Shown: positions 5,241 through 25,725 of the stretch, piece after piece
Layout of the letters: the number at the start of each line of letters is the position of its first letter
Position numbering within the stretch: the stretch's first letter is position 1
Origin: Chrysophaeum taylorii
Taxonomy: Eukaryota; Sar; Pelagophyceae; Pelagomonadales; Pelagomonadaceae
Assembly (NCBI GenBank): GCA_029834535.1
Contig: JAQMWT010000433.1
Span: 1 to 29,394 of the forward strand
DNA: 29,394 bases
Reading direction: 5' to 3'
Made by a program: the position numbers and the translations under genes
The notes under the pieces: generated by a model
The model's input: the letters and a program-made list of their open reading frames with translations, nothing else
The model's database searches: none
Told to the model about the DNA's origin: nothing

Positions 5241-6088
5241 GGTTGGAAACTTGACTTTGCCCTTATATTTTTATGACTATGAAGAACCCAGTCTGAAGCT
5301 CTTTTCCAACATGGAGTAGGCCTCCAGGTGCGTACCGTCAGGTACGGGGTTTTCTGTTTAATTAACAGAGGCTTCGTTCCTCGTTGTCAGTGTAAACGCT
5401 TCTATGGGACCTAATGTCCTTAAGGAGTTAGGGCTTAAATCCCTACCTTGTGTAGTAGCATGTGACAAGCGGAATGGTCTGTACACGCCTAAGACTGCAC
5501 GCAGTCTCTACCATGTACCCGGAGAGGGTCAAATCTCTCCAGGTTATGGGCCCAGATGCGTAGGTGTGTCAGCCCAACTGTGTTGTACGTCTAAATGGAG
5601 TGATCAATTTACGCCTGATCACGAGTACAATGCGACAATGTGTTTGGCGGTGGTCTACTGTACATATTTGTTGTGTGACGGTATGTGCCCACCAGTTAAT
5701 TTGGTTTGTGACCGAGTTGGGTCGGTCACTGGTCATATGCACTCGCATAGCCAATAAAATTAAAATTTTCCTATACAAGCCGCGGAAACTTGTACGGGTT
5801 TTTCCTTCCATTCCCCAACAAAAGACTGACTGCTCGAGAATTAATCCATTCTTCAGTCTCAAGTCATCCTGTTTTAAATAGCATGTTGATTTGTTTGGTC
5901 TTGTAAATAAGCCCACGTTTAAAATAGCGTACTGTACATATAACCCGCACTTGAGAAACCCTTCATTCTTATGTGTCGAATCTGTCTATCAATCCTCTAA
6001 CCTACCTTGATCAGTCACGATACTTCTCCTAAAAATACCAATATCCGGAATGCTCCGGAATACAGTCAAATCCTTGATAACGAAGTAG
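5241..6088 (+). other. Probable 5' LTR and leader of the copia element
   Basis: Base composition turns AT-rich here and stays so to about 14090. A TATA-like CCTTATATTTTTATGAC lies near 5260 and a polyadenylation-type CCAATAAAATTAAAA near 5750, as expected inside an LTR. No second copy exists in the window because the element is cut at its 3' end, so LTR limits cannot be set by comparison. A TGTTGGGGG at 5207 could be an LTR start but overlaps the preceding repeats. A 117-codon Cys-rich frame (5404-5757) is open but unsupported. Confidence 0.5.
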
Positions 6089-7377
6089 ATGCCATCTTTT
6101 CAAGATGGATATCCGAGAAAATTAACGAATTACATCTGCATTAATGAAGATGCCCTGCCCGAACATTTAAAGACTTGGCACGTCAACTCTTCCCATCAAC
6201 TATCAGTTGATGTCCGTAATAATCTTGAACGACTTTACTACCAAGAGTCGTACAATCTCGTTCGTCCTGAATTAAATGAGGATGTCAAACGTGTCCTCAC
6301 TTTATTAGATACCCGATTCCCTAAATCAATTGTGTATGATTCATCTCTAACTAACATATCCTTTACAGGTCTCTCTAATGCCGACTGGATCAAACACTGC
6401 GAAACTTATGCTGGTTTCTTGTACACATTCTTTAACTTGGAATCACAAGAAAAACCCGCACTCGCTATGTGGCCTCAATTAAAGAAAATATATGCACTTA
6501 CTGCACATCCTAATAAATTACGTGCAGTAATGCTTTTAGCTTACCATTACTATGAGACAGTGTCTTGTACAGATGTAACTGAGCTTAAATCTCAGTTTAA
6601 TCGAATGTCTTTAAATGTTAATTGGTATGCCCATGTATTTGTCGAACAACTCCTTGCCTTTCAATCTCAGGCAAAGCAATTAAATAATGATGAAGCATCA
6701 ATCCAATTTAATAACTCCATAATCACTCTTAAAGCTCACGAGGAGATCTACCGTCTATATGCTAATCCCTCGGATCACGAGCGCTATTCTCAATCTTTAT
6801 TGGAATGGTGTAAACTCTACGAGACACGCTCTGGGAACAACTCGAGTCACGATCCTGAATTGTTAAAGCTAGTTGATCCTAACGACGTTCGTCCACTATT
6901 GGAATTCTTGTTAAAGATATACAATGAAACAAAGTTTTCCTCTAACCGACGCTTGGATAAACCCGCTTCCTGGATCCCTTACATCCCTGGTACTACCGCT
7001 ACCAAGCCACCTAAGGTATTATTGATGGATACTATTCATCAATCCCACGACTCTCTAAACAACGCTTACTCGTTGTTAGCTACTGTAGCTGGACAGTCTG
7101 GCTTCAACGCTCGTAAGCTTCGTAATGCAAAGATAAAGCATCGACAATTTCACCTCGTGACACGTCGTACTATCGTCCACCTTCAAATTATAACGTCAAA
7201 GGTACCAGCTTCGATCGTCCTGTCTACTCATCTTCCTCTAACCGTAATGCACGCTCTAATATGTCTCTTATGGACCGGGCTACTTATCAAGTTGATCGTC
7301 TTCGCCACCTGTTTGGTAAATTACAGGAAGCGAATCCCAACCTTCTACCGACTCTAAAATGGTACAGGAGGAAATGA
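6089..7377 (+). pseudogene. Copia gag (capsid-like)
   Basis: The ATG at 6089 begins a frame of mainly helical sequence with no zinc knuckle seen; by position and composition it is the capsid region. A tract around residues 100-240 (WPQLKKIYALTAHPNKLRAV onward) is alpha-helix rich, as in copia gag. At about 7130 (GCAAAGATAAAGC) the coding character jumps to the -1 frame, where Arg/Ser/Asn/Tyr-rich sequence (SPRDTSYYRPPSNYN) looks like a nucleic-acid-binding tail and runs to TGA 7375-7377. It overlaps the protease frame by 19 bases. Function is inferred from place; sequence similarity alone would not identify it. Confidence 0.65.
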
Positions 7378-8591
7378 AAAGCTTATTGAGTACCCTCTGG
7401 ACAACCGCTTCTCAAGCTTCGACACAGTCCTTAGATCCTGACGAAGCCACCCAAGTTCATCTCTACTTATCTCGAGTTGATACTATGTCCAATACCATAT
7501 CGAACCTCTTAGAAGCCGATAAGGAATCTCTTGTTTCAGAAGAAAAGTATCAAACTGAAACATCTGCTCCTGAAGCGTCCCCCAGTGATGCGGAGCAGAG
7601 GGGGACTGCTGATACAGAGAAAATGTTCCACACTTTTCTGTCCATTAAAGATGATGAAATCGATAACATCCCTCAGCCGCTATTGCAGCACATAAATGCT
7701 AAAGCTCAGAATGCTATCGTTCGTCGTCAAGCTCGGGAAACTTCCTCGCACTCTGAGCTCCCCAGTAATCTACCCAATGAAGATAATGAAGATGGTACAG
7801 ATCCCCCTGTGTTGCTACCAAAATTAAACACTGGTTTTACACTCGTCGTTGTGCCTTCCGAACAAACGCAAAGTTTCATGACACAGTACGTGTTTGGTCA
7901 AAGCTCAACACATGCCTGTTATGCAACAATGCTTAAACTGTACAACGAGTACAATTTGCCGCTAATGACTACGCCAGGATATGCTGACACATGTGCTTCT
8001 CAACATGTAATTAACTTTAAACGTTATGCTGATCCTATCCACATCGTAAAGCTACCCGAGTCCTTATCACCTGCTATCCAGACTGCTACGGATACGCAGA
8101 GAATCACACATGCTATGATTATAAGGACCGTCATTCCCGCTCTCCCAAAGCATCCAAATGTGGGATATGTAAAGCTAGACGTTGCGCTTTTCCTACCCAA
8201 GCAAAACGACCATAACGATCCCGATCTGCACATCATCAGTATGACTCAATGGGGAGAAGATAAACTTGGTATACATCTTTATGGAGTTGAATTTAAAGGA
8301 CAATCATCTATCCAGAGTAAAATTGATGATAATGTCAAGATTACTTTGTTTAGACTCAGTAACCTGTTGCCAACTCTACCAATTTATTCGCTACAACAAG
8401 CAAAAGCGCGTAAAATGGAACTTCGCTCACTACAGTTCAGACTATGTGCTTTTAATGAACAACGCGAAATGCTTAAACTATATTCCACCCTCATGGAACG
8501 CGTAATTTACGTCCCATGGCTTAAAACCATCTTGGAGTCAATGCATTCGCAGCTGCCTTACATACGCAAGCATTTCCCACCTCCCGTATGA
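7359..8591 (+). CDS. Copia protease region
   Basis: This 410-codon frame ends in TGA 8589-8591. The first part is Ser/Glu-rich spacer; the second (about residues 200-350) contains ADTCASQHV at 7984-8010. It aligns with the copia aspartic-protease signature D-S/T-G-A-T/S-x-H: the aspartate and following Ala-Ser-x-His are present, but the usual glycine is cysteine (TGT for GGT, a one-base change). Cleavage of the polyprotein would depend on this site. The same frame stays open directly after the TGA into the methyltransferase, so the two may be one reading frame joined by readthrough or interrupted by a single mutation. Confidence 0.7.
   Translation: MVQEEMKSLLSTLWTTASQASTQSLDPDEATQVHLYLSRVDTMSNTISNLLEADKESLVSEEKYQTETSAPEASPSDAEQRGTADTEKMFHTFLSIKDDEIDNIPQPLLQHINAKAQNAIVRRQARETSSHSELPSNLPNEDNEDGTDPPVLLPKLNTGFTLVVVPSEQTQSFMTQYVFGQSSTHACYATMLKLYNEYNLPLMTTPGYADTCASQHVINFKRYADPIHIVKLPESLSPAIQTATDTQRITHAMIIRTVIPALPKHPNVGYVKLDVALFLPKQNDHNDPDLHIISMTQWGEDKLGIHLYGVEFKGQSSIQSKIDDNVKITLFRLSNLLPTLPIYSLQQAKARKMELRSLQFRLCAFNEQREMLKLYSTLMERVIYVPWLKTILESMHSQLPYIRKHFPPPV
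7581..7610 (+). repeat. 30-bp purine-tract repeat, copy 1
   Basis: The segment contains GATGCGGAGCAGAGGGGGAC and matches 11774-11803 at 27 of 30 positions. In frame it encodes SDAEQRGTA. The AGAGGGGGA core resembles a polypurine tract, the primer for plus-strand synthesis in LTR retrotransposons. Confidence 0.75.
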
Positions 8592-8609
8592 CGCAAGGTT
8601 ACCACACGT

Positions 8610-10500
8610 TTGCTTCACACAGTAACTTCATCTCCTAGCTCACGAACACCTACTGTAACTCTACTTTGCTCTGGGATGTCCACTCCTGCATTCTTGGCTT
8701 GCGCTTCTAATGACTTGCAAATCAACATCAACGTTAAAGTTCTTGTTGAGAGCGACGACAATATCACGCACATGCTACGAAGACGTTTTGGTAATTCCAT
8801 CGAAGTTTTCCCATCCCTACCCAAGTTTCTGACATATCTCCATCGAGCATCGGACGTTGAACGTGCACGATATTACACCGATATAGTGGAATTGACATCA
8901 CCATGCACAAATCGCAACATAATCAATGGGAGATCCATTTCCACCTTCGAGCGTGATATGGATGATTCCTTGTTTCCAAGTGCTCTAAGTGTATTTGAGC
9001 TTTTAAAGCCGCTTGTTCTTTTCATGGAAATGACACCACCACACTCCGCATCGTATGAAGACCATATACGAGTTGCTAATCTCATCTTCTCAACGATGCA
9101 CTATACGGTGGATATATGTGACCGATTTCCATGCTATCTGTGTGGAGATTATCAAGCCAGAGAAAGATGGATCCTCGTTGCACGCAAATATAACACCGGC
9201 CCCCTTGATCTGCTTTCATGGCCTAACAATCGAGTCACTTCCTTTCTGGACATTGCAGACCACGCTAATTCCATCAGTCGCAAGTTAATAGTCGACGAAC
9301 CTTGGACGCAGGTCTTTCCCGACATACCATTCGTGTCCACACCTAAAACCTACAACACTGTCAGTCGTACAGGATCCGTGCGCTTAACTGTGACTGAGCT
9401 TAAAACCTTAACTATGCTGCTCCTTCGTCTGCACTCTAACAAAACAGTCGAACATCCCAGTCAAGATGAAATGGAGGGCATTTCTAACTTTCGCCTGGGA
9501 TTCTTGACTAATTCAAGAAAGCCACTTGCTTGTACGAGATCTCCTATTGAACTCAAAGCTTTCGTGCTCCTCTATAATATTATGGGACGTTTATTCCCTA
9601 AATCTATCACATTACCTGTGTCCTTTCGTATTACAACTATCGAATCTAACCAACCATCTCACAGGTTATTCTTAAATAAATCCTCTACTTCCTCCATCAT
9701 TTACATCACCGGTGGAAGACACACAGGCGGAGACATAACAGTTTCTAACTCCTCTTCTAAATACCAGGCACATATAAATGCTTTTGGCGAAACCTATACC
9801 TTCCTAACACATGATGCCGGAATCGATAAGACTGCTTCTCTCGAACCTGTTACTGGTTTTCTTTGGCTTTGCCAAGCATACCATAATAATAATGAAAATC
9901 AAGACACGCGTCGTCTAGTACAAGCACTGGTTCCCTATACTTCTCCTGTATTTCACGATTCTTTTGTCTTCTACCCTCAGGAAAATCGTCTCGAATTTAT
10001 CGATAAAATGTTTGCTTTAAGTGACATGCATCTGTCCCAAAGCAGATACCTGGGCTTTATTACATCAAGCGATAGGAAGATGGGTGCCAAAGTTCATTCT
10101 ATATACACTCCCACTCCCACCATTCGTGGATTTGCTAATATGCTCGTGTACGATCCACGACTCGATCGCATTCGACACTACTCAACTCGTGAATTGGCAC
10201 GCGCCAATAACTTCACAGCGTACCAAATCAATTTTCTTTTGTCTTTGTCCCCGGACCTATGCTGTGACATAATCGCTAATGCTATTCCGGCTGGAACATA
10301 TCATATAATTTATAAACATTTGTGTCAGCTTGTCTATGACTTGCGTAAATTAACGCTATCACCATCGTTTGACCCTGATCATGCTTCTCTAACCAAAAAC
10401 TATAGGTCAACATTCTTCACAAATATATTCCCAACCGACGCATCCTTAATATTACACCAGAGTTCCATTACAGTATTCTACATCTCCAATAAAAACTCTC
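8610..10500 (+). CDS. C5 cytosine DNA methyltransferase domain of the copia polyprotein
   Basis: Within this frame (numbered from the codon at 8610) the C5-MTase motifs appear in canonical order. Motif I is TVTLLCSGMSTPAFL (about 15-29), with acidic ESDD at 48-50. Motif IV is TSPC with candidate nucleophile Cys99. Motif VI is LVLFMEMTPP with Glu140, in place of ENV. Motif VIII is YQARERWILVARK (181-193), equivalent to QxRxR. A variable region of about 240 residues follows (target recognition). PTPTIRG (501-507) and STRELARANNF (525-535) form motif IX, and IIANAIPAGTYHI (554-566) is motif X. The enzyme class transfers a methyl group from S-adenosylmethionine to cytosine C5. It lies between protease and integrase. 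The frame shifts -1 near 10495 into integrase. Motif assignment is by eye; activity is inferred from retained Pro-Cys, Glu and QxRxR. Confidence 0.85.
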
Positions 10501-12980
10501 ATGTTGTGATAATCTTGCTTCTAACCACGAACTTCCATCTTTTCATCTCGATTCAGTAGCTCATGTCTTCCTCTCTAACACCTCATCCGCAGATATATCA
10601 TCTCCTACTAAAGAAAGACAAATTCCTCTTATAACGCCAAGACAGCTCCATGAGAAGCATGCGCCCTTCGATAAGAAAGTTCATGCCAGGGGCACCCTCG
10701 CATTTCGAGATGCGCAACAACGAGCTACCAATTTTCACAACATCCACCATTCTAGTGATTCTCAAGCTATAAAAGCTGTTCAAGATATTGCCAGTCCTGG
10801 ACATCACCCATCTGACGTACCCTACCGTAATTTCTGTGTGGATTGTACGATCCATAAAAAACGCTTCCCTCATCCACACCGCCTTACCAAGCAACCATCA
10901 TTCGAAAAAATTTTTCAACCTGGTGAAGCCTGGGCATGTGACGGTGGTTACGTATCTGTTCTCTCGGAATGGGGATCCTTTCGACATATCATTGTTTTTA
11001 AGTGTCTCATTTCTAAATTTTTGTTAGTGTACTTTTGTCGTAGCACTAATTCTAGCGAATTTTGTCACGCCCTTGAGTTTGTCCGCAATTTTTGCTCTAC
11101 TTATGTTCATGTACAACTAAAACAAATCTATTGTGATTCCTTTAAACCCTATTTATCTCAGCATGTTACAACCCCCTTCCGTGTGGAACATGGTATTAAC
11201 ATGTCCGCGTTCCCCCCTTACTTACATGTCTTTAATCATGAAGTAGAAGCCGCTGTTGGTCACATAGCCACTGCCGCGTCTACACGACTCCGGCATATGC
11301 TTAATGTGTCCTATAAAGGTCACCCCCTAACAGATCCCGCACCACACTACCCGTGGGCTGCTATACATGCCATCCAATCGTACAATCTCCTCCCTAACGT
11401 TTCCCTCGAGCGTATTTATAATAAAGTCCTAAGCCCCCAACAGGTTTTGTTAGACCAATGTAAAGATCCCCAACAGGACTACCTCAAACCTTTCGGTTCT
11501 GTTTGTTATCTGCATTTGGAACCTAACGAATTTCATAAATATGAACCTCGATGTCGTCCTTACATCTACTTATGTGGTGCTAATGTTATAAATCCTTTAA
11601 TCACACCCCATGTTAATCATTTAGCCGATGTTGTCCTTAATCCTGAAAACGGCCAAGTCCGTGTTTCCTCTAAACTGACTTTTCCTCATCTTATTTCTAA
11701 ATCTCCTCCTGATTATGAACAGCATCCACCTCCCGCACCTTCACCCGACATTCCCTTCTCTGTTCACAGCACCCCCAATGATGCGGCGCAGAGGGGGAAT
11801 GCTATGCCTACCGACACTGACCACGAGAGGGGGACTCCTTCTTCTCCTCTCCATGCTCCCTCTCCCGTTCCCGCATGTGTTCCAGCTGCTTCTGCAGCCG
11901 CTACTTCCGCCACCACACCTACATCTGAAGTGTCCTCCAACACTTTGCCACTTTTACCATCTTATCGGTCTCTCTATTCCCAGGATGTCCTACGTCTCAC
12001 CCGTGGTCCACCTCATCACCCTCAACCTCGTCGCAAAACCAATCTCAAGGATGTTCTTACTCGTATTGCCTCGCCTACTGTTGCCGCTTATAAACAAGCC
12101 GGTGGTGCGCTTGCCGACTTCAAGTATGACCTCTCAAAGCAGTACATAAATTTCTGCGACCCCACCCTCCACTCCCTTCATCTTGCTCATGGCATCCACT
12201 GGACGGCTATACCTCCAGAGGGGGGATTTACACCATCACTTCATCACCATGTGCACCAAGCGCTTTCACAGTCCTCTTCAGTTATGTGTCATAGGAGCCA
12301 TAGCCACCCATCGCCTGATACTCCTCATGTTCACTTCTGCGACGACGTCAACCTTGCAGACTATCACCTTCCTCAAGCTCTCGTTCATCTAATTTCTGAA
12401 CATGCTCACGCCTTTCAAGTTCCACCCGCTCAATATGTTTATGCTTTGTTTACACCCCACTCCATTTTGGATCATAATGACGCTTCTTATGGTGCTTCCG
12501 AGCCTCATCTCTCCGCCATCGAAGACTATATCACCGCGCAATCGCATTACATTGAGGTCCACCTTGGTGATGCTCCTCTACTAGTTGTTCAACTCGTCGA
12601 AGATCCCGATCACGCTCATCTGCACGATAATGTCGCTTCTTACGCAATTACTCATCTGACGACGACTCATGACCCCAGCACTGTTGGTTCGGACGAATAC
12701 AAGATTCAAGCCAAAGATATCAAAATTGATGAATATGAGTTGAACTGCCTCAAAGGTCTCTCAGACGCTGATCGCAAAGCTTATGTTGCTGCCATCTCCA
12801 AAGAGATTTTTGATATTGTTAAGTTTGGCTGCTTTAAACTAGCGCTGCCAATGGTCAACTCAAAGCCTATTGACACCCGCCTCGTCCTACGTATAAAAAC
12901 CAACGCTGCTGGTCAGTACATTAAACATAAAGCACGCCTGGTCCTACGAGGATTCTTAGCCTCTCTGGGCACCGATTTTT
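10493..12980 (+). CDS. Copia integrase and N-terminal reverse transcriptase
   Basis: The frame opens at 10493. An HHCC zinc-binding domain is visible: FHNIHH, then FCVDC about 30 residues later (about 10733-10845). The catalytic core has ACDGG (Asp at 10940), IYCDS (Asp at 11135) and N-x3-E in FNHEVEAAVGH (Glu at 11246), a D-D-36-E arrangement. The C-terminal KPFGSVCYLHLEP matches the copia pattern after the core. A Pro/Ser/Ala/Thr-rich hinge follows (about 11700-11950). RT begins near 12740, with KARLVLRGF and then GTDF at the frame change. The frame moves -1 at a T5 run (about 12976-12980); after it the canonical TFSP continues. Confidence 0.88.
11774..11803 (+). repeat. 30-bp purine-tract repeat, copy 2
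   Basis: This is the partner of 7581-7610, encoding NDAAQRGNA in the hinge between integrase and RT. Shorter relatives of the AGAGGGGG core follow at 11826-11835 and 12217-12226. Confidence 0.75.
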
Positions 12981-14092
12981 CAACACATTCAGCCCTATGG
13001 CACAGCTTACTGGCATCCGTTGTGTTCTGGCGCTAGCAGCTCATCTGCGACTTCCCGTCTACCATGTCGACGTCCCTAACGCTTTTGTTCAAGCTCCCAT
13101 CGACTCTCATGTCTATGTCAAACTGCCACAAGGCATTTACCTTCTCGATCCCGAAGATACTAAATATCAAGGCCGTCGTCTCCCAAAGCTACTTAAATCT
13201 CTCTATGGATTACGTCAGAGCCCTGCCCTTTGGAATCAAACCATAAACGGCTTCTTTGATTCATTAGGCTATACACGATTTCGAACAGACACCTGCATTT
13301 ACGCTAAAGTCCAAGCTGACGCTACATTTCTAATTTGCACGCTCTCAGTAGACGACGTCGTCATTACTTGTACTTCGGAAACTCTACGTCGTGAATTCCA
13401 GCAAGCCCTGAAAAAGGAATACTCAGTCGACACCTTCGAGGAAGTCCATACTCTCTTAGGCATGCGCATAACGCGTACAACTGATGGTTCTATATCACTG
13501 GACTGTCAGGCTAAACTTGATGCATTGTTCGAAGAGTACCCCATTTTAATGCAGTTACGTCCCACTTCCACACCGATGTCACCATCAACCACGTATAAAA
13601 CTGGAGAGCCATCTTCTGATATGGACAAGTTTATTCTTCATACCTTCTCCACCCTACTCGGCAAGCTCACGTTTGTCCAATTGGCCTGTCGCCCTGATCT
13701 ATCCCAAAGTCTTAGTCGTTGCTCTCGAGGAATGCATAATCCAGCATTTCTACATGTTCAAGTACTAACAGGAACGCTCCGCTACTTGCGCAAGCCCGAA
13801 AATCGTAATCTTCGACTCTGGTACTACTCTGGCTCTTCCGCTCTAATGGACCATCTTCGACTTCTTATCGGTAATCGCACTGACATGGCCACCATGTTGG
13901 ATTACACTAAAGAACAAGTCAATTCAGGTAACTTTGATCCATTGGTCGCGTTCGTTGATGCCGATAATGCACCTTCTTATGAACAAGACCGCAAGTCTAC
14001 AACCGGTTACGCCATCTTTTTGTTTGGTTCTCTCATCACTTGGAAGTCTAAGTTACAGCCTATCACAGCTACTCCTACGCACGAGACTAAAC
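12981..14092 (+). pseudogene. Copia reverse transcriptase and truncated RNase H
   Basis: Read from the -1 frame after 12980. RT motifs are LPVYHVDVPNAF (catalytic Asp at 13069), the copia hallmark KSLYGLRQSPALWNQ (13192-13236), and LSVDDVV, in which SVDD replaces the usual YVDD but both aspartates remain. YSVDTFEEVHTLLGM and later STPM are also typical. RNase H begins with FVDADNAPSYEQDRKSTTGY and SLITWKSKLQ, then stops at TPTHE, where the family would continue with the E-A-E-Y motif and about 70 further residues. From about 14092 the sequence is unrelated and GC-rich, so the copy lacks part of RNase H and the 3' LTR. Confidence 0.9.
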
Positions 14093-15103: not shown

Positions 15104-15434
15104 TGTGGCAGTAACGCCCATTCCCCCCCACTTGCCTGCCTGCCACCTGACTTACCATGATTGTTGCCCTGGTACTGACCTTGCAATTATGGGGGGGGTG
15201 TCATCTTGACGCCCTCACCTGCGCTTCCACCGAACTCAATGTACCGGGCATTTTTATCGCTTTCTTGCTGTCTTCTTGCTATTACCCTCATTTGATTGTC
15301 CGATTTTCGTGATGGCGTGCGTGTTTACGCTGAGATCGGCGTGTGGTGGTTTCACCCGCGGTTCGGGTTGGGAGAAAGGGCTGTTGAGGCCACTGGCCTG
15401 GCCAAGAGGGGCGGGTATCTGAAAAACCACTACA
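15104..15434 (+). repeat. 5' LTR of the miniature element
   Basis: It starts TGTGGCAGTAACG and ends AACCACTACA (TG...CA). It aligns over its length with 16175-16507 with roughly 16 differences in 331 bases. Confidence 0.93.
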
Positions 15435-15452
15435 GTGGTCTCATTAACGGGA

Positions 15453-15481
15453 ATCGATAGTCCAACTCCCGGACTATCGAT
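15453..15481 (+). other. Hairpin just behind the 5' LTR
   Basis: Perfect 11-bp arms, ATCGATAGTCC (15453-15463) and GGACTATCGAT (15471-15481), enclose a 7-base loop. They are placed where retrotransposon RNAs often carry packaging or dimerisation structures. That role is inference. Confidence 0.75.
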
Positions 15482-15932
15482 CTCCTGTTTTTCGGCGGCC
15501 TGTCGGTTCGCAGCGGTTGAGTGAGCGCAAAGCCGGCGTGTTGGTAGGCGGTTTCGACGGATCGGAAGAGCGACTGAGTGCTCTTTACGTGAATCGGAAT
15601 AAACGGCCGACGGATTACTACTCGGACGTTGAGCGGATTTTTGTGGGTCTCAAAACAAAAAGCGAGCCCGGGAGACCACCCACAGTCGCCGAAAAGAGGC
15701 AGAAAGAAGGCCGGAGAGACCAACCATAGTCTCTGGCGAGGCAAAAGGCTTGTGCCGTGTAAGTCCGTCGCACCGGTCAACCGCGCGAGTCGAACAGTAG
15801 CCGGCAAATTTTGCTGCTCGACGAGAAGTTTTGGTGTTCGAAATAGCCGTTGATATCCGAGAGAAACCGCACCATGGAAACTAGAGGAGACTGACGTTTG
15901 TTTTGCGACCGCTTCTGCTGAAGAACGACGCT

Positions 15933-16139
15933 TAAGACCAGAAGACAAAGACCCTGAAGGAGGTAGCTTCACTCGCCTACGAACGAATATGGACGGCTGT
16001 GAACCTTGTGACTTACTTTCGCCCGGATGATATCGACGCAATCGTCAGTAACTTCGGCCTCCACAGCAACAAAGTTCCTGCTGATTTAGCTGACCGAGCT
16101 TACCGTACCATTCGTGAGCGTGACCTTCGTCACCCTTGA
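15933..16139 (+). pseudogene. Coding-looking remnant in the miniature element
   Basis: A frame without ATG runs from just after a TAA (15930-15932) to TGA 16137-16139, about 68 codons, with ordinary protein-like content: VASLAYERIWTAVNLV, RPDDIDAIVSNFGLH, LADRAYRTIRERD. It may be the C-terminal end of a lost gag or other retrotransposon protein. No family match can be claimed. Confidence 0.4.
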
Positions 16140-16174
16140 AGTCGAGGACGACTTCATCTCAAGTAGGGGGCTCC

Positions 16175-16507
16175 TGTGGCAGTAACGCCCATTCCCCCCC
16201 CACTTGCCTGCCTGCCACCGGACTTACCATGATTGTTGCCCTTGTACTGACCTTGCAATTATGGGGGGGGTGTCATCTTGACACCCTCACCTCCGCTTCC
16301 ACTGAACTCAACGTACCGGGCATTTGTATTGCTTTCTTGCTGTCTTCTTGCTATTACCCTCATTTGATTGTCCGATTTTCGTGATGGCGTTAGTGTTTAC
16401 GCTGAGATTGGGCGTGTGGTGGTTTCGCCCGCGGTTCGGGTTGGGAGAAAGGGTTGTTGAGGCCACTGGCCTGGCCAAGAGGGGCGGGTATCTGAGAAAC
16501 CACTACA
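16175..16507 (+). repeat. 3' LTR of the miniature element
   Basis: This is the second copy of 15104-15434, starting TGTGGCAGTAACG and ending CCACTACA, followed by the CTAA duplication. Confidence 0.93.
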
Positions 16508-16663
16508 CTAAACGCCCGCACGACCCTCATTGGTCCTACAGACATTCTCGATGCGCCGGATGTTGTATTTGGAGCCGATGGCATCGTGCAGAATAGAGCC
16601 ACCCAGGCTCCCGCCTCGCCCGAGGGCCAAAATACCTCAATCCCGTGTAGATACCGCAAATAA
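16508..16663 (+). pseudogene. C-terminal piece of the interrupted gene
   Basis: After removal of the miniature element the frame continues through LIGPTDILDAPDVVFGADG and ends SIPCRYRK with TAA 16661-16663. Of the three frames, this one looks most protein-like and is the one that joins the sequence before the insertion. It ends directly before the right inverted-repeat arm. Confidence 0.5.
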
Positions 16664-17455: not shown

Positions 17456-17731
17456 TTCAAATACTTATTGTATCTCGATGCCCGCCGACGGGCCACGGCG
17501 GTGCGCGCCTGTGTTACCAACGCAATGGATGTTGCAAACGGCCGCGGGCCTGGTGAGTTGCTCGTGCCAGCAGATGTGTACTTTATTTTGTGGCTCGTGG
17601 CGAGGCTCGACTGCTCTTCGGGGCAATTGCGCCGCGCCGTGACGATAGACGCGGAGCCTCGGCCTGCCCCGGTGCCCCGCGGCCCTCGCCGGGACTCTGC
17701 TCGGTCCATTCGCCAGAACCAGAAAAGCAGG
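17429..17731 (+). pseudogene. Hypothetical frame of the TIR element, split by the LTR element
   Basis: The ATG at 17429 starts inside the TIR array (MGNGHVTGY). The frame runs to the GCAGG target site. After excision of the LTR element it would continue at 25731 for 11 codons (FLPHLAYTLS) to a TAG, giving about 112 residues. It has no recognised domain; the C-terminal half is Arg/Pro-rich. It could equally be non-coding, with the gene on the other strand. Confidence 0.35.
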
Positions 17732-17915
17732 TAGAGATAGGAAATTCCATTTAGGGTTAGGACCCCCCCCCTAGTCTCACACTCACACCTAAACACCCCA
17801 AATCGCTGTGTCGAACACCGTGCCGCTCTTTGTGTCGTAAGAGGACAGGGCGATAAGAGTGGCCTACCCTGCCACCATTCTCTACCAGAGGCACAGTGAT
17901 TTTTACTGTTCTCTC
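17732..17915 (+). repeat. 5' LTR of the 8-kb element
   Basis: It starts TAGAGATAGG and ends near TTACTGTTCTCTC. It matches 25540-25725 with about six substitutions and a 2-base length difference in a C run, roughly 96 percent identity by eye. It contains TTTAGGGTTAGG, a telomere-like stretch, before a C9 run. Ends are TAGA...TCTA and not TG...CA. Confidence 0.92.
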
Positions 17916-18140
17916 GGTTTGGACCCAGTCCGGTAATGGTAGAGAAACGTCCTCCGAAAGACATCGATCTCGATCGACGTCTCGGACAAAGACTCAGGAT
18001 TTCCAGGCAAGAGCAATCTCCTGAAGTTCCCGAATGTTTTAAGACCGTAGTCTCATCGCTTGCTACTGGTGAACAAGTGTGAACAAAGTGTGACAAAGTG
18101 AGAAAGGCAACAACAACGCGCAAAACGCAACCCCAAAACG

Positions 18141-19700
18141 ATGGCGACTCACGACCCACAAGTCCCGAGTCTGGAAGTAGCGACGCAACTCGCTACAGTA
18201 TTGCAACTGTTCAAAGCTGATTTAGCTAATCTAAGAGCCAAACACGCTGCCGAAAAAGCTGCGCTCGCCGAAAACTTCGCTGCCGCAATCGCAGCTCAAG
18301 ACGAGCAACTCGATCAAGACGAGCAACATGAACAAGCTCCTCAACCAGCTGTTCTTACGGCAACCCCCCTCAAGCAAGCTTCTCACGAAGTCGCGACCCA
18401 AGACCCGATCATCTCGATGGTCACACACCCCCCCTCCTGCTGTTCAAAGGGTTCTCGAACATGAACCGAACCCACCTCCTGTCGTCCACCCCACCGGATG
18501 TCAAACACCCCACAGCAAAGTCTCAGACCCCACTGCCTTCCCTCCGGACCCAGGCATATCCAAGGTTACTCCACAACCTGGTCCCACTTCACCATCTATT
18601 CAAGTTTCCCAGCATCCTCGTCAACCCCTTCGCCGCAACACTCATCCCCTTCCTGACGATCATGCCACCTACGGCCATGACGGCACCGGCACCGTCATCC
18701 CTGACCAAGCCCCCACCGCGGCTCAAACTCCTGCCGCCCCACCGTCGGACTCTCTTGTCCGATATCCATCATCTTCCGCAAGTCACTCTCCTCCGGACTT
18801 TCATCTCCATCCACAAGACCATGCCACCTACGGCCACGACGGCCCCGGCACTTCCATTCCTACCCCAGCTCCTTCCGCGGCTCAAGCTCCTGCCGCCCAA
18901 CCATCGGACCATCCTGACCGACCTTCATCACCTTTCGAAAGTCGCTGTTCCCCCGATTTTCATCTCCACCCGCGTGACTACGCACTCCACGGCTACGACC
19001 ATTCCCCCGTCTCCACCCAAGCAACACTCCACCTCCTTTCTCAAAGTTCCAATGCACCTCCGTCTGCGCTCCAACGCGAGTTGGCCACCACTAAGGCTGC
19101 ATTCCACTCCCAAACCGCTGACTTGGCCGCAACCAAGGCCATGCTCGTTGCAAGGACGACGCTTTGTCCTCCACAGCCGCCAAACTCACCATCACCGACG
19201 CCGCCCTGGCTTTCGCCACTGCCCAGCTCGCCATCCAAGCCGACGAATTGGACTACACCCGCGCGGAACTCCATCTCACCCACACCCAGTTCAAGGCACT
19301 CGAAACTGCCCACGCTGACATCCGCAACTCCCACTTTGAAACCAACGCCGTCCTCCACACCATTCTCACCTCATTAGATGCCACCCACCCCACCAACGAT
19401 GCTGCATCGCATCTTTCACCTCCTTTCCCCATCCACAACCAACCTTCATCCCCTTCCGAACCAACCTCCAATGCCTCTCCCCCGATTCTCCCCGAGTATC
19501 ATCACCACCTCCACGGATGCCCCGGACCTGGTTCTCCTGGTTCACCACCCACTCCGTCTCTCTGTTCTCAACCCCCCGCCATCTCTGGCCCCTCCTCCTC
19601 TGCCAAATCACTCTTCGCCTCTCTGGCACCCCCTGAACCCCCCTTTGCACCCGCTCGCCTTATCAGCCACCTGGTTCATTCCAACTCGACCACATCCCCG
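18141..19700 (+). pseudogene. Gag-like coiled-coil protein of the 8-kb element
   Basis: The ATG at 18141 (context AAAACGATGGCG) is the first after the LTR. Residues 10-60 (LATVLQLFKADLANLRAKHA, then AEKAALAENFAAA) form a coiled coil. At a C7-C8 run near 18425 the frame moves, and a Pro-rich part with a 159-bp triplicate repeat follows to about 19060. A second coiled coil (ELATTKAAFHSQTADLAATK, then after another shift near 19150 ADELDYTRAELHLTHTQFKA) runs to about 19330, then Pro/Ser-rich sequence. The order coiled coil, linker, coiled coil suggests a self-assembling structural protein; that it is a gag is inferred from position. Confidence 0.5.
18658..19030 (+). repeat. 159-bp (53-codon) repeat, two full and one partial copy
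   Basis: Units begin at 18658, 18817 and 18976 with D(H/Y)A(T/L)(Y/H)GHD or GYD and end in SPPDFHLHP or SPDFHLHP. The spacing is exactly 159 bases each time, a multiple of three, so the frame is kept. Confidence 0.85.
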
Positions 19701-21736
19701 CGTCCGAGTTGCGAGGGCGTACATCCAACACCGGCGACCGTACCCCTACCACCAGCGACGATCACCACGTGCAAAGTCCCACCAAGAAACAAGACCACCA
19801 ACATCAAGAGTCGACAAATTCCGAATTATCAAAAGACAGCTCTTTGCCTGATGGTCATGCTCACCATCATGCTGCCAAAACATGCACAAGGGCTTCTTCT
19901 CTCTTCGGGCACAACGGCCCAGGAAGCAGTCTTGTCGAAGGAACACCAAGCCACCTCGTTCCCACTTTCGACAAGTCAAAGAACAAGACACCTCGAGATG
20001 TTCCCGAGTATTATGCCTAAATCGACTATGGCAACCACACTCAAGGACCCAAGGCTCCGCCGTACTCTATGCCCCAGGCACAAGAGCCGCAGGCTACTGA
20101 CAACATCCCCTCGGATTCAGCCCCCTGGTATGATGCATACAGCGAAGAAGCAAGACCCACTTCACTAGCCTCGAAGATGGTCTCCTCGACCATTCCAGAT
20201 CAGCCGCCTGATCCTAGCACCATCAATGCCCCCGCATTGCCGTATCCACAAGGACAAGACACGCTGTCAACGGTCCCACGGTCAACATACTCGCAGGTAC
20301 TCACCGCACCTGCAGGTATCAGCTCAGATTCACCAGGCACTCCCGCCTTGTTCGATATCTCTCGATCAACAGCTCCCGATCACTTCGAAGCTGGTTCCAC
20401 CTCGCCGCCTTCTCTCCCCGACGACAGGCGCGCACTGCCGCTCACCGGCGCTCGCTGCTGCATCCACCATCCACCTTCTCGGCCGGATGCACTGGATGAC
20501 ACTGCTCAGCAGGTTGCATGGACCCATCTGCGATCACCATTTCACGATTCGATGGATGTCTTCGCACGAGCATCAGTCGCAGCACATGATCACCCGCTCC
20601 CCAACTCTCAGTCAGAGGACGCACTCCTTTCGGCTGCCGATCCTTATGTCTCACCGCGACCAAGCTTCTGGAAAGCCTTCCCCATGGCTGCAGTAATAGA
20701 CAAAGATTTCGAGAGTTCTGAACGACCCGATCAGCCGCAAACTATGCACGCTTCTATTGCGACCACTTCGGTCCTTTATGTCCCCTTGCATAGCTCTCTT
20801 CTGGACGCCACACGCTTGCGCTGCCTCCGGAAAATCGATGTTGCGCTCTCAGGAAACATTCTCCGCGCACAATGCACAGACTCGCTCCACCTGAACCGCT
20901 TCTGTCAGCACTTTCGCATCACTGGAATGTACGACAAACGTTCCACGCCAGCTGCCGGCTCCACCACAAACATGCACCCAAGTCACGCACGTTGCCTCCC
21001 TCAAAAGCGTCTTATCGCTCGGCACGTCACTCCTCATTTGAGGACGCATGTCACATGCCCGCACCTTCGAATGCCCTACACGCCTATGGGCAACCCTGGT
21101 CACTACGGCACTCACTGCTCTGGTCCCAGCATCTCCGCCATTGAGGATGCACCCAGCAGGACTGACCCTTTCATCGCCCTTGGTTCTACTGCACTCTCCT
21201 TCGGCGATCCCCCTTTTCGAATTCCCGCACTGGACCCCAAGCATTCCAGGCCGGATACTCTCCACCACGGGATCTCAGCTCACGCGCCCATCTGCCCTAC
21301 CTTGCAGACAGGTCAGCCGCGAGCCACACCCCTTTTGGCACTGACTTCGGACCACCCGCATCACGCGCTTTTGCTCTTGGAGCATGACACGCTTTTCGAT
21401 GCTCTCCGCGTCACCGCCTCTAACACCAAGACACTCGTCATTTCCACCGACGCTCCGCGCCGCAACGTATCTCACGACCTTCAGATCACCAACATAAGTC
21501 GCTCGCGCCCGCACCACGTCGCGCACGCCTTACGAGGGCGTATTTCAATTGGTGACCTCACAGGTCTTTCGATGCATTTTCCGACGTCCGACTTTGAACT
21601 TACGAGTTACTTTATGGCAATCCCCAATGCCAAGACGTCTGAAGCTGCGCAATCATGTCTCTGGAACTCCAAAGCCACAGAAACTGCCAGACAAGAAAGC
21701 ACTCAACTCTCACAGCTGCTCAACAGCTACTTATAG
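19650..21736 (+). pseudogene. Low-complexity frame of the 8-kb element, part 1
   Basis: One frame continues from about 19650 (QLDHIPASELRGRTS) through a TAA at 20018-20020 to TAG 21734-21736. Around the TAA both sides look alike in composition, so it may be a single mutation. Content is Ser/Pro/His/Thr/Asp-rich, with few hydrophobic blocks and no known motif. The tetrapeptide LRGR occurs at 19709-19720 and 21530-21541. A polymerase, integrase or protease could not be seen. Confidence 0.4.
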
Positions 21737-24700
21737 TCTCGCACATAGCAACGAGTACTATCTCGCAGTCTCTATTGGACGACAAGACGAAAGATAAGAC
21801 CACAACGGCCAGCTACACCAGCCAGCTCATTGATGTAGCAGACGAGACAATGCAAACCAACTGCACAGCACGGTTCCAGACTATGCAGACGATGCTCAGG
21901 TCCAACGCTCAATTACTCGACCACGCACACGTTCTGTCACCTGACCTTGCACTGCTACTGGCTCCTGTCTCATTCATAGCTGATGCACCCCATCCGATGG
22001 ACCAATCCTTAAGATATGTCCCGCTCGCAGAAGCACCACCACAGGACACACAGGTACATCATGAAGATACAGGTAAGCGCACCACGATCACGCGCACAAG
22101 CTCATTGCGCCTATCCGATCACGACGAGACGAAGCTACAGCTTTGCTTGTTCCCTTCGCCTCTGGAAGACAAAGGCCGCCTTTCAGCCTCCCAGGCACAT
22201 GACCCGTCCCTGTCGCTGCAATCCGTATTAGCACAGACGATCTCGCCTCCCTGCACGACTGCAGATCAGGCACAAGCCAATGTCAGCACTCTGCAGAGTT
22301 ATGCGCACCCGCTGGAATCTTACCAGCACGGCTACCTCAGCCAGTCAGGTCACTGCACCACCTCGGTCTCCCTGACACCAGGTCGACGCATCGCTCATTC
22401 GCGATCACCTCAAGTCATCTATTGGACGACTATGATCTCGAGCATGAACTCATCGCAACGCTTGAGTCATACCCAAGAAGGAATCCTACTTTGGAGTCAC
22501 CTCAGCCACTCCCACAGGAACTTTGGCCACAAGACGCCACCCATGTGCTCGTGGTTTCTCCATTGGTTTCTTCCAAAGCTTTTGACTGCAGCAGAGACAA
22601 AATGCAACCTCCCCATGCGACTTTTACCGCATTCTCGTTTGGGACACAAGCATTTACCTCATGTCATTTGTTTACGCCCATAGTACCGCGACACACGGCA
22701 ACCAAGATAGAAGTGGACTGCGTTCCACCCTCATCTCTGAGCGCTACCCCCGACATGCTGCTCCCGGCACTACTAGCCAGTCCCATCACGTCTGATTCAG
22801 CTTCCATCGCTTTGTATGACGTCATATGTCATATTCCGATTACAGCCCAGACACCGCACAGGCTACTATGCACTCGCGACGGCACGCTCACCGCCCCTCT
22901 CGGTTTAGACTACGAACATTGCGCCATACGCATGGTACACTCACAGTCAACTGAGATGCTCGCTCGCATGTCGCACAGTATGATGCCCGAACACCTTTTG
23001 GTTCGAGATACGCAGAACACTGTCGTCTCAGCCACCGCTGAAGCGCCTCCTCCGACCGCCGCCCGGCTCTGCGCTCGTTCCGCAACCATGGTCTCTCCGT
23101 CTCACCGGCAATTCGAAGATTTCACCCAGTTCGAATTACGAGGGCGCATTAGTTTTCCACCGACGACAAGATTCGTTTCGATTCGTATCAGTCATGTCTC
23201 CTATGGCTACTCTGGCTACATCGGAACTCACTTCAGGGCACGTACCGAAGTCCCTCTTTCCAAGGACCTCTGTCACACGCCAAGACCTCATGAGCATTCG
23301 TCGTCCCTCCCCGCTTCCACGCGACTCCCGACGACCAATTCCCCGACGACTTCTGATGACACTAAGTTTCGTCATCAATGCAATTCAGAGCCTCCCACGC
23401 TCTTCCGCCAGTCTCTTGCAGGTCACACCTCTAAAGTTTCAGCTCGCTCGATTTAATCCTGCATGCTGCCATATGCAAACGAAGTTATGTCACGCCAAAG
23501 CCAAACGTCGCAGATATCGCCAGTCTCGCGCAATAAACGCCCGCCACCAAATGATAGCCGCACGCAGAGTCCTCTGCTCACCTCTTTTAACGTCCCTCCC
23601 AGCACTATGCTTGACTTTGAAGCTCCGCACCACCAAGGTTCGGTTACAACACAACTTCGCGCGACATCCTCGTCCAGTTCAGATAATATCTCGCATCTGT
23701 CGACATTACTATCAGAATCATGCTTCGGACACAGCTCAGACTACACTCGCGTATTACGCTCTTATGACGCACCCGGTTCGCTCCTCTCCGTTCACACTGC
23801 AGGTTCCATCTTGCAGAACTCTGAGCCCAACAGCCGCCATTGCGATTCGCACCCAGTCGACACTTTCCGTAGCACCCGCGAGGATAACCCCCAATCTCCA
23901 CCGGTTGGACACGCGCTCTGCCGCACACCGCTAGCCCCACCCAGTTGTGTTACGAATCAAGGGAAGTTAACTGCCATGCCTATCTACTTCTTCATTCCCA
24001 CACACTCGCTGCTAGCACAGCCACAGTCTCGCATGACTCATTGTCGGATAGTTCTCGCATTATGGACTTTACCTCACATCATGTTCATTCTTCGGACATC
24101 ATCCGTCCACAGATTAATCCTCGCTTGAAACATACGCTCCCTACACGTTGTATACTGTACAGCTCTCGCATATCGACAACACCCTTCTGTCGAATGTCTC
24201 CCCTTTCAGTCACTGCACGATTCACCAGGGATGCACCACGCTCCCTCGCGCTTGTACATCAAGGGAAGTTTGATTCTGGTGAAAACGACTCCGGACATGA
24301 AATGAATACTGGATCAGTCGATTGTCACAGTTCAGGATTACTTTGCCGAATAGAACACGGAAGATGCGACTTTGACCATACCTTCGAAGTCAACTCTCCC
24401 CCTGGCACGGGCACTATCTTCAAGCAGTCCATCGCCTTCAGGCATTTTCTTCTGTTGCCCGACTCTTCTGCATTTTCTGCACAGGGCACCGACTCTTCAG
24501 CACAGGACACACGCCTGTATCCACCATCATACGCGATACACTCGCAAACCTCAGTCTCAGCCCAATCATCTTTCGATGATATCCACTGGCGACTTACACG
24601 AGACTACAACCCGAAGTCTGCAGCAAATTTAGAGTTCCCATATTTATGGCCTACCCCAGACAACTTTATCCCGGTATCCTCATCGCGCTGCGATTATCTG

Positions 24701-25102
24701 CATATTAATTTACACGCTCATAGCCTAGCTTCAGCTGTCCCACGCTACACTCAGGACGACAGCTTCGACACGTATGTGACAGGCAATTCTGGTTCTTTCA
24801 TCTTCCAGGAACAGCTCCGCCTTACTCGCTATCATTACGACGATTACCTTACCATGTCGAAACCGATTTGGTTAAATGGTCATATCTCTTCATGGGATAA
24901 CGCTGGCGCTCAGTCACATCGTCAAACCTTTACTAGCCCAACATTAGTCACAATAGAATCTCATCCCTACGGCCACTCTCACTATTCGCCTTTCGATCAA
25001 TCATTGGTCTGCTGCACAATTCCCGACTGCCTGACCCATGATCCCTACTGTTGTTATCAGTTAGACCACCCGTTCTACTACGAGGATCCCCCAGCCACTT
25101 AG
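21655..25102 (+). pseudogene. Low-complexity frames of the 8-kb element, part 2
   Basis: Successive overlapping frames (21655-22683, 22422-23456, 23463-24128, 23945-25102) share the same Ser/His/Pro/Thr-rich character, so they may be a single long protein interrupted by indels. The final 385-codon frame ends with a Tyr/His/Asp-rich segment (FDDIHWRLTRDYN, CCYQLDHPFYYEDPP) and TAG at 25100-25102. A third LRGR lies at 23136-23147. No domain was recognised. The alternative is a non-coding, GC-biased spacer that happens to stay open. Confidence 0.35.
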
Positions 25103-25539
25103 GATTTATCCACCGGCACGCACCGTCCCCTATCTCATCAGTCACTGAACAAGATGATGATCTGATCTCTCGAACAGAATTCGCCATACTTCGCCATTAG
25201 CCTACCTAGCATTTTCCTCCACGTATCCTCTTAGCATCTTCCTCCACTTTTCTTCTTCCTTACGATCGATGCCTTTTCTTTTCCTTGATCATTCACCTCT
25301 TCTTGCAATATCCTTTTATTTTGCTTCCCCTCTCAACCTATTCCACGTTCAACTTCGCGCTCTTTCTCCTTTCTCACTCACACTTACCTGCTATTCCGCT
25401 CTACTCTATCTCTCTCATGCACTTCGCACACTTTCCTTCCACGCCTCCTCACAACTCAACGTCTATTTGTCTCTGGCCAGACATTTGTTTTGTTTGTCCC
25501 AGATTTCGCTCATCACCGAGATTTCAATCTGCGAGGGCG
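25103..25539 (+). other. 3' untranslated region of the 8-kb element
   Basis: C/T-rich sequence without a convincing gene lies between the last stop and the 3' LTR. It ends in CTGCGAGGGCG, a purine-rich tract touching the LTR, in the position of the plus-strand primer. Confidence 0.6.
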
Positions 25540-25725
25540 TAGAGATAGAAAATTCCATTTAGGGTTAGGACCCCCCCCCTTTAGTCTCACACTCACACCT
25601 AAACACCCCAAATCGCTGTGTCGAACACCGTGCCGCTCTTTGTGTCGTAAGAGGACAGGACGAGAAGAGTGGCCTACCCTGCCACCATTCTCTACAAGAG
25701 GCACAGTGATTTTTACTGTTATCTA
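25540..25725 (+). repeat. 3' LTR of the 8-kb element
   Basis: This is the second copy of 17732-17915, starting TAGAGATAG and ending TTATCTA, followed by the GCAGG duplication. Confidence 0.92.

Follow-up and report, generated by a model that had tools for sequence, protein, structure and literature searches.

The window analysed here, which is the whole of the 29,394-nucleotide contig JAQMWT010000433.1 (C433) of the alga Chrysophaeum taylorii, carries a truncated and frame-broken copy of a Ty1/copia retrotransposon, the Pol of which is predicted to begin with a C5-cytosine DNA methyltransferase (MTase). The MTase domain is under purifying selection and lies just behind an in-frame TGA that is strictly kept among copies of the element; therefore, elements arranged in this way may mark their own new copies. 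Taken as a whole, the best explanation would be a Pol-borne C5-MTase that is produced past the TGA and acts on the complementary DNA (cDNA) of the element, to which a probability of about 0.6 is given. The genome searched comprised 70.8 Mb in 697 contigs, and its 84 matches to Chloroa_b-bind indicated a photosynthetic host. A first-pass annotation had proposed a C5-MTase inside a Ty1/copia Pol, a proposal backed by homology, by selection and by the fold seen in a core model of low confidence, while the conserved TGA and the broken state of the window copy had been overlooked.

The MTase frame (8592-10559, on the forward strand like all features of the element given below) is a single open frame of 655 codons, in which the MTase domain, the first part of Pol, occupies 8592..10493. 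All the motifs named in the first-pass annotation were present in this one frame and in the order proposed. They comprise motif I TVTLLCSGMSTPAFL, corresponding to the S-adenosylmethionine-binding turn (8652..8696, by alignment), the motif IV Pro-Cys (residues 104-105) in TSPC (8901..8906), the motif VI Glu 146 in MEMTPP (LFMEM; 9027..9029), the motif VIII-like QARER in YQARERWI (9153..9167), and, after a long insert in the target-recognition region (9192..10109), PTPTIRG, STRELARANNF and ANAIPAG, the C-terminal motifs up to and including IX-X (10110..10295, by alignment). The succession I, IV (PC), VI (E), VIII (RxR), target-recognition region and IX-X was thus found together with the catalytic Cys and Glu. 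The Pro-Cys, Glu 146 and Arg 192 were invariant in nine of nine aligned proteins; the Pro-Cys aligned with that of M.HhaI through the family profile, and Cys 105 is the expected nucleophile. Among 11 copies of the family compared, TSPC, (F/L)MEMTPP and GDYQ(A/S)R(E/G)RW were kept in all, and ANAIPAG in ten, the eleventh stretch (L032, which carries three stops) ending before that place. The gap before PTPTIRG, previously put at roughly 240 residues, measured about 300 from the motif VIII region. This insert is a feature of the family of the window (family A): it is mostly absent from L051, a marine polyprotein described below whose target-recognition part is short, it differs in length in a second family (B), and part of it is shared by L052, a piece of a further family (D; 40% over 218 aa). 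The segment from PTPTIRG to ANAIPAG aligned with PVPTITRYGN ... YIANAVP of L051 and with PT...N ... ANAVP of family B.

The search of the MTase frame against PF00145 returned no direct match, either for the window or for the copies L021 and L024, and homology was reached through relatives: P0002, P0003 and family B were above the cut-off and P0001 just below it, BLASTP linked the domain to P0002 and P0003 (6e-25 and 8e-20), and the MTase region of L051 alone scored 23 bits against a cut-off of 22. Moreover, a profile of family A aligned with the PF00145-matching profile of family B over 282 columns (E 4.6e-5, probability 69%), while five reversed-sequence controls of this comparison gave probabilities of at most 0.56%. 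Structure prediction gave a full-length model that could not be used and a core model (predicted local distance difference test, pLDDT, 57; predicted template modelling score, pTM, 0.56) whose Foldseek and VIA rows fit a C5-type class I MTase core. The absence of a direct match to any curated family would be expected if the motifs were a chance resemblance in an ordinary Pol spacer, a reading that is hardly conceivable given the homology found to PF00145 proteins and the agreement of the profile-profile and fold comparisons. The C5-MTase identity is supported by homology, by the low-confidence core fold and by selection, and membership of the C5-MTase family within a Ty1/copia element is regarded as practically certain.

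Selection was assessed by the ratio of nonsynonymous to synonymous divergence (Ka/Ks), which, pooled over 11 copies of family A, was 0.085 for the MTase and lowest in its catalytic core (0.051, compared with 0.081 and 0.093 for the other parts). When only pairs with Ks above 0.3 were considered, among five copies and with Ks values against L024 near or beyond saturation, the ratio was 0.051 for the MTase core, 0.079 for the whole MTase, 0.059 for the integrase, 0.095 for the protease region and 0.031 for the reverse transcriptase (RT; 3 pairs only), while the linker between integrase and RT reached 0.248. Therefore, the MTase is constrained about as tightly as the integrase. These values also bear on whether the domain might be non-catalytic and retained in Pol for nucleic-acid binding or for structure. 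The divergence of motifs IV and VI pointed out in the first-pass annotation is real, SPC and MEM replacing the usual GPPCQ and ENV (the latter found in family B), and together with the loss of a direct Pfam match it could speak for lost catalysis. Against this stand the invariance of Cys, Glu and Arg in the nine aligned proteins, their retention in all 11 copies, save that in L024 a neighbour of the Arg shows a Glu/Gly change, and the minimum of Ka/Ks in the catalytic core, so that loss of catalysis has only a slim chance of being right.

The junction of protease and MTase revealed a second conserved feature. In 11 of 11 copies compared, the protease-region frame, open for 30 to 486 codons upstream, enters a TGA followed by C (TGA at 8589..8591, then CGC, in the window), and the MTase frame starts directly after it. 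The TGA was kept even in L021 and L024, whose MTase Ks to the window is 0.9 and about 2, respectively; in a twelfth copy, L005, the junction letters were kept with a frame change nearby. A genome-wide pattern of the junction gave 166 matches when any codon was allowed and the same 166 with TGA, a count that excludes copies whose flanks differ, L021 and L024 among them, and, because many copies are close kin, does not represent 166 independent events; the two free flanking positions varied among the 41 places inspected. Some retroviruses produce gag-pol by read-through of a stop codon, and UGA-C is a leaky stop context.

It is highly likely that this TGA, the probable read-through site, is read through or otherwise recoded, and read-through would be the simplest account of its retention. 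Alternatively, the TGA could be the plain end of a first open reading frame, with the MTase produced by non-AUG internal initiation, a spliced RNA, frameshifting or selenocysteine insertion. A kept stop shows by itself only that the stop is retained, and a conserved hairpin at the TGA was unsupported, since only two of 22 pairs were changed on both sides and L024 disrupted several of them. This alternative is nonetheless improbable: in all 11 copies the protease frame ends and the MTase frame begins precisely at the TGA, L051 is open across the equivalent region without any stop, and the MTase frame has no Met ahead of motif I, its first Met being residue 29 in ten copies and residue 61 in L024. 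An ATG does overlap the TGA, in a different frame that soon reaches a stop, so that re-initiation there would yield no intact MTase.

Read-through or recoding at the TGA would feed a Pol whose remaining parts place the element among the Ty1/copia retrotransposons. The window copy retains the 3′ part of a 5′ long terminal repeat (LTR; 5263..5541, the first ~116 bases gone, the alignment to L022 starting at base 117 of the latter), a gag-like frame of 422 codons named by its position (6089..7357), a protease-region frame (7320..8588), an integrase frame that enters the start of the RT (10493..13036; rve 0.0038 and SH3_retrovirus 1.6e-5, both below curated cut-offs), and the RT with the start of RNase H (12931..14086; RVT_2 9.6e-33). 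The Ty1/copia assignment rests on this RVT_2-type RT and on the order protease, integrase, RT, in which the integrase models of the window are weak and the protease is known by motif only; the same integrase-before-RVT_2 order was found in L025 and L051. Neither the gag-like nor the protease-region frame had a Pfam match, and the latter was named by position and by ADTCASQHV (D at 7986), a DGGAS-type motif occupying the equivalent place in family B. The triad is DTC in family A (7986-8000 in the window), DSC in L051 and in the family D piece L053, and DGG in L025 of family B; retropepsins usually have Gly at the position where family A, the D piece and L051 have Cys. Intact LTRs were provided by the copy on C668, whose 402-base repeats, obtained by comparing its two ends, have the same terminal letters as the window LTR part, lie 11.8 kb apart and are identical at 398 of 402 bases, so that at least one insertion is recent.

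Homology to other copies stops at 14086, which makes the window copy 3′-truncated, and its frames differ between gag and protease, between MTase and integrase, and between the start and the rest of the RT. The first of these changes, near 7.3 kb, reflects damage to the window copy, because L023 has one 608-codon frame that spans the gag region and the beginning of the protease region. Likewise, the MTase runs unbroken into the integrase in L021 (1464 codons) and in L022 and L023 (1184 codons each), and a single frame of L024 covers the junction within the RT. Thus, the earlier proposal that the MTase lies in the protease frame and upstream of the integrase held for the shared frame and for the position, with the qualifications that the in-frame TGA intervenes and that the window integrase, unlike that of L021, L022 and L023, is in another frame. 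As a side observation, the coding strands of copia families A (window 5263-14086) and B are G-poor, with a GC skew of -0.17 to -0.29 that is absent from the gypsy family C described next.

Besides family A, whose 655-aa protein matched at least 73 places, three other MTase-bearing families were found in the genome, all counts being lower bounds that include fragments. Family B, a second Ty1/copia family, occupies at least 85 places (L020 and L025-L028 among them), and in L025 PF00145, rve (below cut-off) and RVT_2 follow one another in one 1952-codon frame. Its MTase is clearer than that of family A, with PCQ and VENVPP, and shares the frame of integrase and RT. An RT identity of 28% between A and B came from unequal cut-outs and was set aside. 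Family C (at least 118 places, including L029, L030, L033, L035, L036, L037 and L041-L046) is Ty3/gypsy-like, with RT_RNaseH and Integrase_H2C2 in downstream frames, and two of its places lie within frames above 3000 codons; the MTase regions of two subfamilies matched PF00145 at 4.6e-6 and 3.4e-10. These regions lie upstream of the RT and display FSGAGGSTLGL or FAGAGGSTLGI, SPPC and SVVPP. Profile comparisons of A with C (0.17%) and of B with C (0.08%) gave no match and therefore no support for descent of the copia and gypsy MTases from one ancestor; judged by these profiles, the host Ty3/gypsy C5-MTase may be another acquisition or may be too diverged to compare. Outside the LTR families, L009 and L010 are C5-MTase genes with full-length PF00145 matches (4.1e-19 and 7.9e-18), that of L010 sitting in a 2086-codon frame.

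The marine relative L051 (NHBR02000125.1) is a 7.7-kb contig titled Muricauda sp. TMED12, and is probably a eukaryotic contig placed in a bacterial bin. Its single 2557-codon frame encodes a polyprotein with a protease-like motif (DSCGS), a compact MTase, rve (below cut-off) and RVT_2 (4.5e-45). With this MTase as the query, family D was found at no fewer than 109 places, 33-38% identical, and it proved to be copia: of the best 150 RVT_2 places, 35 have a D MTase 2.6-4.9 kb upstream, in a comparison that drew on 51 of the 73 places of family A and left family B out, and on C42 the D MTase and RVT_2 share one 1691-codon frame. Before this search, 133 of the best 150 RVT_2 places lacked an MTase of family A or B at 0.5-9 kb upstream and were taken as MTase-less copia elements, a reading that proved mistaken for at least some of them once the 109 places had been added. 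Three RVT_2 places without a listed MTase were sampled, of which C560 (L052) and C2 (L054) held MTase pieces, and at the third, C131 (L053), the match fell in the protease region. The occurrence of such MTases in several copia families of the host and in a second, marine source suggests, as a possibility that falls somewhat short of even odds, that the C5-MTase is an old, standard Pol part of a marine Ty1/copia lineage, placed behind a recoding stop and writing 5-methylcytosine on particle cDNA.

In the mechanism proposed for family A, gag-protease would be the main product, ending at the TGA, and occasional read-through or another recoding event would produce a low dose of MTase-integrase-RT-RNase H, in which the position of the MTase as the first domain after the stop would tie its dose to that of integrase and RT. 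The protease would release the MTase within the particle, and the freed enzyme would methylate cytosines of the new cDNA before or at integration, such that new copies would land with a host-like mark, shielding them from nucleases, deaminases or the sensing of foreign DNA, or presetting a chromatin state. The first-pass annotation had suggested self-methylation of cDNA or of integrated copies, and it is about as likely as not that the enzyme works mainly on DNA of the element itself. The MTase could instead act mainly on the host genome (at the landing site or on competing elements) or on element RNA as 5-methylcytidine, given that C5-MTase folds include the tRNA methylase DNMT2, present among the VIA rows, that RNA was raised as a possible target of a LINE enzyme (De Mendoza et al. 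2018; PMC5890265), and that copies of family A show a weak CpG signal. Host or RNA targets seem unlikely for a domain located in Pol between protease and integrase, which would be packed with RT and cDNA.

Several results weigh against methylation of the element's own cDNA by this domain, as outlined above. Taken by itself, the MTase sequence of the window has no match in Pfam or NCBIfam, the core model is of low confidence, with a mean pLDDT of only 57, and the full-length model is unusable (pLDDT 39). The RVT_2 census, which scored the best candidates only, would allow for copia elements without an MTase. Furthermore, the CpG observed/expected ratio is only slightly low in family A (0.86-0.94 in five stretches), compared with 1.01-1.06 in B (four), 1.08-1.31 in C (four), 1.00-1.46 in other stretches (eight) and 1.34 in L051. 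A small surplus of CpG transitions was seen in A and B, and none in C. Relative to other C transitions, and with related copies counted as independent, the unmasked rate ratios were 1.23, 1.36 and 1.07 for A, B and C (9, 4 and 7 copies). Masking was applied because two A copies had ~300 singletons each from misaligned flanks; it shortened the A region, dropped L028 and L030, and gave ratios of 2.11 (p 0.04), 1.66 (p 0.03) and 0.86 (p 1.0) for 9, 3 and 6 copies. Other sequence contexts, young age or good repair would allow self-methylation without a CpG scar.

The window holds other repeats besides the element. A stretch at 15104-16508 contains two copies of a sequence (15123-15434 and 16195-16507) that also occurs near the ends of the gypsy-type loci L035-L038, and these are probably pieces of family C LTRs. 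Direct repeats at 17731-17914 and 25539-25724, 7.8 kb apart and also present in L017 beside a family B copy, enclose 7 kb that look coding-like, rich in C and poor in G (GC skew -0.32), with frames of up to 571 codons in which no domain was recognised, no domain search having been made; the region 17731-25724 is perhaps a second, non-autonomous LTR element. A tandem array of 9-base units lies at 1465-1644, inside a long frame.

DNA methyltransferases (DNMTs) in retrotransposons have been described before. De Mendoza et al. (2018; PMC5890265) found them in LINE and DIRS elements of Symbiodinium, whose DIRS enzymes methylate CG in yeast, and in a Gypsy element of Klebsormidium, while the Copia elements of Symbiodinium had none; the suggestion that the copia enzyme is a separate capture is in line with this. 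Morozov et al. (2019; PMC6338049) name Ty3/Gypsy and DIRS. A 2025 paper (PMC12344493) mentions DNMT3s in "LTR Copia and DIRS" elements, citing De Mendoza et al.; this sole mention of Copia with a DNMT stands in a passage that describes no element, and it is possibly a slip, because the cited work describes Gypsy. The literature searched, limited in coverage and terms, yielded no account of a C5-MTase in a Ty1/copia element.

DNA methylation is a main host route for silencing transposons, and for this reason a methylase borne by a transposon is puzzling. The C5 cases found described are LINE, DIRS and Gypsy, and the Ty1/copia case adds an invariant stop at the MTase junction. The question raised is whether new cDNA is methylated, in which context, and whether this helps or harms the element and its host; recent insertions and parallel copia and gypsy MTase families in one compact algal genome make it testable.

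Among known systems, KnitGypsy-Dnmt3 of Klebsormidium nitens (PMC5890265) resembles the window element in having a C5-MTase in the Pol frame of an LTR element, many copies, retained key residues and a Ka/Ks under 0.2. It differs in being a Ty3/gypsy element with an enzyme of the Dnmt3 clade, whereas the window element is Ty1/copia, has its MTase between protease and integrase, and carries the conserved TGA before it. SymbioDIRS-Dnmt3 and SymbioLINE-Dnmt (PMC5890265) are likewise microalgal retrotransposons with a C5-MTase and large copy numbers, on DIRS and LINE backbones. The Dam-type adenine MTases of DIRS elements (PMC5890265) and the ParB-MTase of Sola DNA transposons (PMC12477816, PMC6338049) are also mobile-element methylases, of the adenine or N4-cytosine/N6-adenine class and in other element types. 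The RT of the window element is of the RVT_2, Ty1/copia type, so that its backbone is neither DIRS nor Ty3/gypsy. In retroviruses of the murine leukaemia virus (MLV) type, a kept gag-pol stop limits Pol relative to Gag; in the window element, known here from its sequence, the stop follows the protease region and precedes an MTase in a Ty1/copia setting. What appears to be new here is the element type, Ty1/copia, in which this retrotransposon-borne C5-MTase occurs, together with a putative expression arrangement that is likewise new.
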